Below, piece by piece: positions 12,625-15,069 of a DNA stretch of 64,000 nucleotides. Numbering within the stretch: the first letter of the stretch is position 1; every line of letters starts with the position of its first letter. Source of the stretch: Granulicella rosea (lineage in GTDB: Bacteria; Acidobacteriota; Terriglobia; Terriglobales; Acidobacteriaceae); assembly GCF_900188085.1 (NCBI RefSeq), contig NZ_FZOU01000002.1, positions 124,001-188,000 of the forward strand. Direction: 5' to 3'. Both the position numbers and the translations under genes were made by a program. The notes under the pieces are model-generated. The model did not search any database and was not told the DNA's origin. It saw only the letters and a list, made by a program, of their open reading frames with translations.

Positions 12625-13848
12625 ATGCTTCAGCCGCTTCGCGCAGAGTTCAACCAGACGAAGTTCAGCCCGGAGCGGTACGCCGCGCTGGTGGAGCATC
12701 TCTGCGAACGGACGCGCGCTCGCATTGAGTTTCGCATCTGTGAGACGCCGGTCTTTCTGCCGCAGGCTTTGCTCGAAGAGATGGCTGACGCTGGCCGCGT
12801 CCTGACCCACCAGTTGATCGACAACCCAGAGTACATGCGGCTTTCGGACGGCGCCATTCCTGAGCGGTACCGGCTGGGCAACGACAACCCCCGGCCAAAC
12901 TTCATGACGGTCGACTTCGGCGTCGTTCGCGGCGAGGACGGTCTGCTGCGTCCGAAGCTGGTGGAGCTGCAGGCATTCCCATCGGTCTTCGGCTATCAGG
13001 ATTTGCTGGCCCGGTCGTATCGCGAGGTCTACGGACTGGACCCATCGCTGAGCGGCTACCTCGACGGCCACACCGAGGCGAGCTACTGGGAGTTGCTACG
13101 CCGAACCATCGTCGGCAGTCACGACCCGCGGCATGTTGTGTTGCTGGAGGTCGATCCCGAAGGCCAGAAGACGCTGCCCGACTTCCATGTCTACGAGGAC
13201 CGTCTGAGCATCGCGACCGTCGATATTGCGAAGGTGAAGCAGGAGGGCCGCAGGCTTTTCTACCAGCGCGACGGGGAGTGGATCGCGATCAAGCGCATCT
13301 TCAACCGCACCATCGTCGACGAGCTGGAGCGCCGGGGCATCGTGCCGGGCTTCGACTACCGCGATGAACTCGACGTCGAGTGGGCCGGGCATCCGAACTG
13401 GTACTTTCGGATCAGCAAGTTCTCGATCCCGCACCTCCATCACCCATCGGTGCCGACGGCGGTCTTTCTGGACGACTGGTTCGCGGGGCGCGGACGTGAT
13501 CGTCTTCCCGAGTCGCGCGAGGAGATTCTGTTAAAGCCGCTCTATTCGTTTGCCGGAAAGGGAATCCAGTTCGCGCCGACCGATGCGGAGCTGGCGGCGA
13601 TTCCAGAGGCGGACCGGTCTCTCTATCTGTTGCAGGAGCGCGTCCACTTCGAGCCGCTGATCGAAACGCCGTTCGGCATGACGCAGGCCGAAGTTCGCAT
13701 TATGTATGTGTGGCCGGACGACGAACCGGCGATGCGGCCGCTCATCAGCCTGGTGCGGCTTGGCCGCGGATTGATGATGGGCGTAGACCATAACAGGAAT
13801 CAGGAGTGGGTTGGCGGCTCGGCTGCGCTCGTCCCAAAACAGTTGTAG
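12625..13848 (+). CDS. ATP-grasp-like protein of unknown substrate
   Basis: A 407-residue soluble protein not assignable to a named family by eye. The segment EEILLKPLYSFAGKGIQF looks like the glycine-rich ATP-phosphate loop of ATP-grasp enzymes. MTVDFGVVRGEDGLLRPKLVELQAFPSVFGYQDLL suggests an acidic metal-binding region in the N-terminal half, as in the glutathionylspermidine-synthetase-like or permuted ATP-grasp proteins. It ends with a conserved-looking LVRLGRGLMMGVDHNRNQEWVGG. It is the last gene of the ligase operon. A second ATP-grasp beside the one at 8218 would allow a two-step ligation; a fold search is needed to confirm the fold. Confidence 0.6.
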   Translation: MLQPLRAEFNQTKFSPERYAALVEHLCERTRARIEFRICETPVFLPQALLEEMADAGRVLTHQLIDNPEYMRLSDGAIPERYRLGNDNPRPNFMTVDFGVVRGEDGLLRPKLVELQAFPSVFGYQDLLARSYREVYGLDPSLSGYLDGHTEASYWELLRRTIVGSHDPRHVVLLEVDPEGQKTLPDFHVYEDRLSIATVDIAKVKQEGRRLFYQRDGEWIAIKRIFNRTIVDELERRGIVPGFDYRDELDVEWAGHPNWYFRISKFSIPHLHHPSVPTAVFLDDWFAGRGRDRLPESREEILLKPLYSFAGKGIQFAPTDAELAAIPEADRSLYLLQERVHFEPLIETPFGMTQAEVRIMYVWPDDEPAMRPLISLVRLGRGLMMGVDHNRNQEWVGGSAALVPKQL

Positions 13849-13911
13849 AACCGCCCCTCATAATAAAGCCCTGATGGGGCAGTGGTTGAGATAAACTTTT
13901 CGCGGTGGACT

Positions 13912-14280
13912 ATGTCGATGAAGCTGGTTGCGGATCTTCCGCGAGGAGAACGAAAAGGCTCCTGGAGCACAGCGGGATCAACCGATCCGGTCAGAACGGC
14001 CGTGCGGTTCCCGATGCAGTTGGCAATCCGGATCAAGACCGAAGACGGCGAGATCGAGGCCGTGACGGAGAACATTTCGGCGAATGGAATTCTGTTTAGT
14101 GGTGAAAGTCTGCCAGCGGTCGATAGCAGAATCGAGTTCACTATCGATATGCCGGCTTCGGTGATGGGTTCCGCGAGCGATGTCTCGATCCACTGCACCG
14201 GACGTGTCGTACGGCATCAGGTTAAAGGTGACTTGAAGCAGGCGGCGGCAATTATCGATGAATATTTTTTGAAGGCTTGA
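13912..14280 (+). CDS. PilZ-domain protein (c-di-GMP-binding type)
   Basis: A 122-residue protein with a PilZ domain from about residue 25: RTAVRFPMQLAIRIKT, the NISANGILFSG segment (equivalent of the D/NxSxxG motif), and a closing beta-strand region CTGRVVRHQ. The canonical RxxxR is only partly present: basic residues precede the domain, but the exact pair is unclear. PilZ proteins couple c-di-GMP to motility, exopolysaccharide or transcription. The stop is three bases from the start of the response-regulator gene, so the two are almost certainly translated from one transcript. ATG 13918 is an alternative start. Confidence 0.75.
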   Translation: MSMKLVADLPRGERKGSWSTAGSTDPVRTAVRFPMQLAIRIKTEDGEIEAVTENISANGILFSGESLPAVDSRIEFTIDMPASVMGSASDVSIHCTGRVVRHQVKGDLKQAAAIIDEYFLKA

Positions 14281-14283
14281 TGG

Positions 14284-15069
14284 ATGGCATTAATGGACTT
14301 TAGTTCGAATGCGGCACCCGAGGGGATGGAGACGGAGCTCGACGGCACGCCGGCGATCCGGGTCATTCTGGCCGATTCGCAGGCGATCTACCGGGTTGGC
14401 ATGAAGAAGGTCTTCGCTCTGGAGGACGACATTCGCGTCGTTGCCCAGGCGGAGACGCTGACGCATCTCTATACGGCTTTGCAGCGATTCCCGACAGACG
14501 TAGTTGTGCTCGAAGGTCAACTGATCGCCGGCACGGTCAACGCGATTCCCGAGCTCGTGCGTCGCGCTCCTGACGCGAAGCTGATCGTGCAGGTGGTGGA
14601 GAGCGACGAGACGAACACCGTGGAACTCTATCGGCGCGGTGTGCGCGGGGTTGTCCCGCGGTCGATCTCGCCCGATCTGCTGATCAAGTGCGTGCGCAAG
14701 ATCGCCGACGGCGAAACCTGGATCGATAACCAGTCGATCAGCTGGGTCATCGAGGCTTACCGCGCTCAGGCCAGCTCGCTGACCAGCCCGCGCAGCCAGC
14801 CGAAGCTCTCGAAGAAGGAGCTGGCGATTATCTCCTGCATCACGCGCGGTATGCGCAATAAGGAGATCGCCTACCAGATCGGCACCACCGAGCAGGTCAT
14901 CAAGAACTACCTGCGCAAGGTCTACGATAAGCTCGGCGTCTCCGACCGGCTGGAGCTGGCGCTCTACTGCCTGCACCATCAGATTCTGAAGAAGTACAAC
15001 AGCGAGCCAGAGGATGTGCTTCTGGCTGCTCCTGAGGCCAACGGCGGCGCGCGGACGGCCAAGGTCTAG
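14284..15069 (+). CDS. LuxR/NarL-type regulator with degenerate receiver domain
   Basis: A 261-residue protein. An N-terminal receiver-like domain (about residues 22-140, from AIRVILADSQAIYRVGM) is joined to a C-terminal LuxR-type helix-turn-helix (KLSKKELAIISCITRGMRNKEIAYQIGTTEQVIKNYLRKVYDKLGV). At the position of the phosphoacceptor Asp the sequence reads DVVVLEGQL, with Glu. The usual acidic pair is reduced to LADS, and the conserved Lys region reads VVPRSIS. This suggests a phosphorylation-independent or constitutively active receiver. It is linked to the PilZ gene and followed by a strong bidirectional terminator. Confidence 0.88.
   Translation: MALMDFSSNAAPEGMETELDGTPAIRVILADSQAIYRVGMKKVFALEDDIRVVAQAETLTHLYTALQRFPTDVVVLEGQLIAGTVNAIPELVRRAPDAKLIVQVVESDETNTVELYRRGVRGVVPRSISPDLLIKCVRKIADGETWIDNQSISWVIEAYRAQASSLTSPRSQPKLSKKELAIISCITRGMRNKEIAYQIGTTEQVIKNYLRKVYDKLGVSDRLELALYCLHHQILKKYNSEPEDVLLAAPEANGGARTAKV

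Follow-up and report, generated by a model that had tools for sequence, protein, structure and literature searches.

The reading frame at positions 14284-15069 on the forward strand of the window, i.e., of the whole stretch of 64,000 nucleotides of Granulicella rosea DNA that was analyzed, encodes a DNA-binding regulator of the NarL type from soil acidobacteria, and its receiver appears, from alignment and structure prediction, to have kept its fold and lost its phosphorylation chemistry. Because the phosphorylation switch is worn and a PilZ gene lies ahead of the regulator gene almost constantly, the regulator probably listens to c-di-GMP and not to a kinase. We place slightly better than even trust in the proposal that it binds DNA independently of phosphorylation and that its input is the PilZ protein encoded in the same operon. 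The frame of 261 amino acids was found in the list of open reading frames and its translation as the first-pass annotation had described it, and the nearest named relatives of the protein belong to Granulicella, Edaphobacter and Acidobacteriaceae.

The C-terminal helix-turn-helix of the NarL/FixJ class was recognized by Pfam GerE with 46.3 bits (cut-off 23.5) at residues 174-228 (14803..14967, +), and its recognition helix, EQVIKNYLRKVYDK, was the most conserved of the elements scored (0.96). Pfam Response_reg reached 25.0 bits at residues 27-137, which is below the cut-off of 30.2; despite this score, the predicted fold identifies a NarL/FixJ receiver domain. The receiver is complete in the AlphaFold2 model of the regulator (mean pLDDT 85.7), and residues 25-145 (14356..14718, +) adopt a (ba)5 fold in the high-confidence part of the predicted model m6e71c6fcf4ad. 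The best whole-chain fold matches were LiaR, VraR, RcsB and NarL, with VpsT ranked 33rd, and the receiver in a model of a PilZ-regulator fusion matched the VraR receiver 7ve6_A with Z 20.9 and 1.3 Å over 130 residues. A search of NCBIfam returned matches to 19 families, none near its cut-off, the best being MadR with 89.5 of 300 bits.

Alignment with Asp-bearing relatives set the motifs ADSQ, VVLEG, VQVV and VPRS of the regulator against ADDH, LLLDL, LTA and LKQ or similar. Thus, Glu77 (codon GAA; 14512..14514, +) stands at the phosphoacceptor Asp, Ser32 at the second acidic residue, Val104 at the Thr/Ser and Arg126 (14659..14661, +) at the switch Lys, which is Lys in all eight canonical relatives compared, and Asp31 is the sole survivor. 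In the AlphaFold2 model Glu77 is the final residue of strand b3 and Arg126 follows immediately past b5, the places which in CheY-like proteins are held by the Asp and the Lys. The substitution of the phosphoacceptor by Glu, the reduction of the acidic pair in the LADS motif to D31-S32 (14374..14379, +), where the first acidic residue is retained and the second is gone, and the alteration of the switch-Lys region had all been read from the letters by the first-pass annotation and were borne out by alignment and model. The protein therefore lacks the set of acidic pair, phospho-Asp, Thr/Ser and Lys that makes a receiver phosphorylatable, and it is an aspartate-less receiver (ALR), i.e., a receiver fold without the phospho-Asp. 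Of the five residues that define a canonical receiver, four have been replaced, and at the level of sequence this gives good support to the loss of control by phosphorylation.

Conservation was followed in two locus sets that share genomes: the best match per genome of the Glu-type class down to 43% identity (58 loci), and the best 80 of 488 confirmed matches of a contig search, in which divergent members are under-sampled. Glu occupied the Asp site in 58/58 loci of the former, where the border between Glu-type and Ala/Ser/Gly-type was set in knowledge of the residues and the most divergent two, L064 and L065, are Glu-type partly by definition. In the best 80 of 488 it was found in 79, the single Asp being that of L114, and it was kept in 71 of the 72 representatives of this set below 90% identity. 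A conserved Asp at this position, which according to the first-pass annotation would speak against its reading, was looked for in the alignment of homologues and not found. Arg126 was likewise present in 58/58 loci and in 79/80 (best 80 of 488; Pro in L155). Among those of the best 80 of 488 that have a residue there, position 31 was Asp in 79/79 and position 32 Ser or Thr in 78/79; Thr occurred in the Thr/Ser column in 6/80. Glu77 and Arg126 also belong to the 34 invariant columns of a 31-row alignment with a mean column identity of 57%. The codons at the Asp site in the best 80 of 488 were GAA (58), GAG (21) and GAC (1), and fourfold sites of the 72 representatives were identical at a level of 0.413 as compared to 0.344 expected from composition, i.e., silent positions are near randomised. 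Since Asp is one base away from the Glu codon and was reached once in this sample of the best 80 of 488, purifying selection on Glu77 is strong in the Glu branch; Arg126 is under strong purifying selection as well. Besides the recognition helix, the most conserved parts were what remains of the acidic loop and the receiver helices a1 and a5 (a5 0.90, b5 0.83), and a2 and a3 were least conserved. The a6 helix has gained conserved Y159 and R160, each in 80/80 of the best 80 of 488. L114 is a natural E-to-D variant, namely a Glu-type orthologue with intact Ser32 and Arg126 and an otherwise equally degenerate site.

The first gene of the pair (13912..14280, +; the start codon is uncertain, since GTG at 13882 is also in frame) encodes a PilZ-domain protein of 122 aa (Pfam PilZ, 39.7 bits, cut-off 22.5), and three bases separate its end from the ATG of the regulator gene, which lies in the same frame. 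A same-strand PilZ frame was found directly upstream of the regulator in 56/58 loci, the misses being the divergent L064 and L065, the latter with only about 1 kb of upstream sequence, and in 78/80 loci (best 80 of 488), where both misses are contig edges. L064 and L065 could reveal how a Glu receiver acts alone. Binding of c-di-GMP by PilZ domains depends on the motifs RxxxR and [D/N]xSxxG, and both are present in the protein of the window as R28xxxR32 and N54xS56xxG59. Their columns are nearly constant in the 80-locus set (best of 488): R28 in 77/78, R32 in 78/78, N/D54 in 77/78, S56 in 78/78 and G59 in 78/78. The partner is thus a likely c-di-GMP sensor, judged by its motifs, and the suspicion of a PilZ coupling with a c-di-GMP link, raised when the window was first read, has been strengthened. 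The genome of G. rosea contains 21 GGDEF domains and four PilZ domains, and the PilZ domain of the pair lies in the shortest of the four reading frames (137 residues; the others have 1545, 1516 and 297 residues). Because 21 GGDEF domains face only four PilZ domains, the pair could be a main c-di-GMP output of this genome. A model of the read-through PilZ-regulator fusion reached a pTM of 0.56 and placed the domains without confidence. Among the best 80 of 488 loci, many of which are short so that counts are lower bounds, other neighbours of the pair were MFS (at least 41), a 407-residue protein (at least 36), YceI (at least 35), AKR (at least 25) and M29 peptidase (at least 16), so that none of them was seen as often as PilZ.

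Histidine kinases were sought with a profile built from the kinases next to the Asp-bearing relatives L178 and L180, which matches these two and L179 and may miss other kinase families. With this profile the 80 Glu-type loci (best of 488), of which 52 include more than 3 kb ahead of the regulator and 2 kb behind it, yielded no related HisKA_3 kinase. In the genome of the window the nearest HATPase_c domain lies 34.6 kb from the regulator, and 10 of 13 related regulators of this genome have one within 5 kb, both determined by hand. Flanks of greater length were retrieved for six Asp-bearing relatives. All three of one family (f7) have a HisKA_3-type kinase gene immediately ahead of the regulator (recognized by Pfam in L178 and L180 and by the profile in L179), and in two of them (L178, L179) a PilZ gene follows the regulator; this row of kinase, canonical regulator and PilZ is a possible ancestral arrangement. 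The other three (L181, L182, L183) showed neither kinase nor PilZ in the fetched flanks, which for L183 comprised less than 200 bases upstream.

In a tree of 65 chosen rows (LG+G4, diagnostic columns included, with long branches meeting, as of L171 with L174), all rows that combine a degenerate receiver with an upstream PilZ fell into one clade of 49 rows (support 100/98), which Asp-bearing relatives adjoin. The clade comprises a Gln-type (family f5), the Glu-type and an Ala/Ser/Gly-type paralogue with Arg for Lys, and a PilZ gene lies upstream in 6/7, 25/27 and 7/15 of their rows, respectively. The deep forks of the Glu and Ala/Ser/Gly part were not resolved by this tree, and the Glu-type may or may not be monophyletic. 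The f5 rows (L071, L072, L074, L075, L166-L168), from another family, represent a further variety of phosphate-free receiver, with Gln at the Asp site (Lys in L166) and the switch Lys kept. In the genome of the window the paralogue (L002/L184; G000:C11:1234511-1235131) has Gly at the Asp site, Arg at the Lys and a recognition helix near-identical to that of the regulator; no PilZ lies within 2 kb of it, and some relatives in other genera have one. L060 (G281:C4, f6) is a Glu-type regulator with PilZ, 51% identical and located in a genome of another family, either by transfer or by mis-binning. Outside the clade, L170 and L171 (f8) and L174 (f3) also have Glu in place of the phospho-Asp but, like CmrT, retain Lys and Thr/Ser, and their short flanks showed no PilZ gene; from these rows, Glu at the Asp site does not appear to require a PilZ neighbour.

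Within this tree, loss of the Asp and acquisition of an upstream PilZ coincide on one branch, and loss of the kinase was likely their companion. As there is one clade and hence one evolutionary event, the correlation between PilZ and Asp loss offers no repetition by which it could be checked. We propose tentatively that the ancestor was a kinase-regulator-PilZ operon of the kind seen in one family of Asp-bearing sisters, that its kinase and phospho-Asp were lost, that PilZ moved in front and that the receiver became a docking surface through which a c-di-GMP sensor would command a NarL-type regulator; with phosphate no longer required, the Asp site may then have changed by drift to Gln, Ala, Ser or Gly in part of the branches, and in Acidobacteriaceae a structural pair of Glu and Arg may have become fixed. 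The finding that just three of the six Asp-bearing relatives have a kinase lowers the probability of this history.

With regard to mechanism, a salt-bridged pocket of Glu77, Arg126 and Asp31 might fix the receiver in a single conformation in the absence of phosphate, and the PilZ protein, which from its motifs should bind c-di-GMP, would dock on the receiver or leave it according to the c-di-GMP level. The change in docking would alter dimerization or DNA binding, in a direction that we can only infer, and the net result would be a two-component regulator rewired into one read by c-di-GMP. In favour of PilZ as input we count the selection on Glu77 and Arg126, the adjacency and the motifs of PilZ, the single clade, the lack of a related kinase nearby, the precedents TssZ-HinK and mrkHI and the ratio of GGDEF to PilZ domains. 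Against it count the fusion model, which gave no confident PilZ-regulator interface, the dependence of the link on a single clade, 8/15 Ala/Ser/Gly rows together with L064 and L065 in which no PilZ was seen, the three outside rows with Glu in which none was found, the failure of the upstream-region search to reveal a binding site or regulon and the fact that c-di-GMP binding is read from motifs.

Glu77 might instead be a built-in phosphomimic, with the regulator always active and dimeric, its output set by its amount alone, and PilZ acting separately and being merely co-transcribed. The strict retention of Glu with avoidance of Asp would fit this, as would the appearance of Glu also in L170, L171 and L174, where no PilZ neighbour was found and Lys and Thr/Ser are kept. 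Moreover, a Glu occupies the site in CmrT of C. difficile, the nearest parallel with mutational data, for which constitutive activity is inferred, and Glu accounts for 26% of the substitutions in aspartate-less receivers according to the available text of the same paper (PMC12548384). However, a phosphomimic would exert its effect via Lys and Thr/Ser, which are retained in CmrT and replaced here, and the co-occurrence with PilZ is left without explanation. CmrT with Glu53 exchanged for Ala gave surface motility much like that of the wild type, and two-hybrid assays revealed no substantial effect of the exchange (PMC12548384). Furthermore, the site is Gln, Lys, Ala, Ser or Gly in sister groups that fall within the PilZ-linked clade, which rules out phosphomimicry as the mechanism of the whole clade; for the Glu branch by itself it is the chief alternative to the preferred reading, but we regard it as unlikely, with roughly one chance against three. 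The proposal of the first-pass annotation that the protein is constitutively active or controlled by another signal therefore fares better in its latter half, whereas mimicry by Glu is the less likely, given sisters that lack Glu, an orthologue (L114) with Asp in a site that is just as degenerate, and the mild phenotype of CmrT E53A. An ordinary phosphorylated regulator with Glu owed to an alignment slip or a sequence error is hardly credible, although the receiver fold is intact and the L114 orthologue has Asp, since Glu recurs in 58/58 and 79/80 loci (best 80 of 488) and the second acidic residue, Thr and Lys are gone as well; a slip or error at Glu77 was ruled out by this conservation and by the alignment with Asp-bearing relatives.

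It is also conceivable, if quite improbable, that the degenerate receiver or the a6 linker helix itself binds c-di-GMP or another small ligand in the manner of VpsT or the ShkA pseudo-receiver, with PilZ as a parallel effector. In ShkA, c-di-GMP docks on the b5-a5 surface of the pseudo-receiver, and a5 is highly conserved here; the newly conserved Y159 and R160 of a6 (best 80 of 488) could serve a ligand as well. VpsT of V. cholerae has a NarL-type fold and binds c-di-GMP itself through the motif W[FLM][ST]R after a5. It matches the regulator in sequence, over the second half of VpsT, and in fold (structures 3kln and 3klo). However, it ranks below LiaR, VraR, RcsB and NarL in fold, a second sensor would be superfluous given the adjacent PilZ, and a VpsT-type c-di-GMP receiver was rejected as its motif is absent, the two Trp of the regulator lying in TWIDN and SWVIE. 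A further reading, to which we give very little weight, is that the regulator acts mainly as partner of the Ala/Ser/Gly paralogue of the same genome, via the same DNA sites and by mixed dimers or competition. As compared to Asp-bearing relatives, the recognition helix of the regulator differs by T to V at 205, H to Y at 209, R at 211 and F to Y at 214, and V205, Y209, R211 and Y214 are common to the Glu-type and the Ala/Ser/Gly paralogue. This suggests, from the helix residues, overlapping DNA targets for both types, and the genome of the window holds one of each. Like helices can be explained by plain common descent, though, and an Ala/Ser/Gly-type protein is the best match in two genomes (G158, G179), so it can occur alone.

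The preferred reading, i.e., PilZ as the input of a phosphate-free regulator, combines kinds of systems that are already known. Both aspartate-less receivers and PilZ-regulator pairs have been described, and the replacement by Glu is likewise of a known type. Acidobacteria are among the groups with the most ALRs per genome, and ALRs resemble the regulator in joining a receiver fold that lacks the phospho-Asp to a DNA-binding output; the word PilZ is absent from the main text of that paper as available (Maule et al., 2015; PMC4395418). Unlike ALRs in general, the regulator has lost Lys and Thr too, and its Glu and Arg are fixed family-wide. CmrT and AtvR, the latter named in the same report, likewise have Glu at the phospho-Asp site and are inferred to act without a kinase. 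By contrast, CmrT is of the OmpR type with Lys and Thr kept, and a PilZ gene is unmentioned in the part of the article at hand (PMC12548384). The regulator does not combine Glu with retained Thr/Ser and Lys in an active-like hydrogen-bond network, as a CmrT-like Glu receiver does.

With respect to PilZ, a likeness in gene order is offered by mrkHI of Klebsiella, where a PilZ gene and, behind it, the gene of a FixJ/LuxR-type regulator are co-transcribed. In contrast to the role proposed here for PilZ, MrkH directly activates its target promoter, and the role of MrkI is left open in the text available (PMC3161979). In Pseudomonas aeruginosa the small PilZ protein TssZ controls the transcription regulator HinK by c-di-GMP-dependent binding, which is weaker at high c-di-GMP; unlike the present regulator, HinK is of the LasR type and, according to the accessible text, was found by yeast two-hybrid screening (PMC10912698). 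None of the titles listed from the open-licence literature names the PilZ-paired acidobacterial lineage. This lineage, with its Asp-bearing and partly kinase-led sisters, is the more interesting part of the finding. The signal heard by aspartate-less receivers is open for many of them, and the lineage offers a testable answer in the neighbouring c-di-GMP sensor. It represents one widespread family of Acidobacteria, which are abundant in soil, and the stages still extant (Asp next to a kinase, PilZ being present or absent; Gln, Glu or Ala/Ser/Gly next to PilZ) provide a way to trace how a phosphorelay regulator may have been rewired.

Additional observations concern the surroundings of the pair. 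The 407-residue protein mentioned among the neighbours (at least 36 of the best 80 of 488 loci) is encoded in the window at 12625-13845 and was matched by neither Pfam nor NCBIfam families at the thresholds applied. In a dyad search of 79 upstream regions no binding site or regulon of the regulator was found, nor an autoregulatory palindrome before the PilZ gene, with no 5-base dyad in more than 2/79 regions, which equals shuffled sequences. A promoter-like element is located ahead of the PilZ gene at 13885-13900; its AAACTTT occurs in 34/79 upstream regions, that of the window included, as compared to about one occurrence expected by a rough hand count, and other loci read TGCGGTAGACTCCTGTG.
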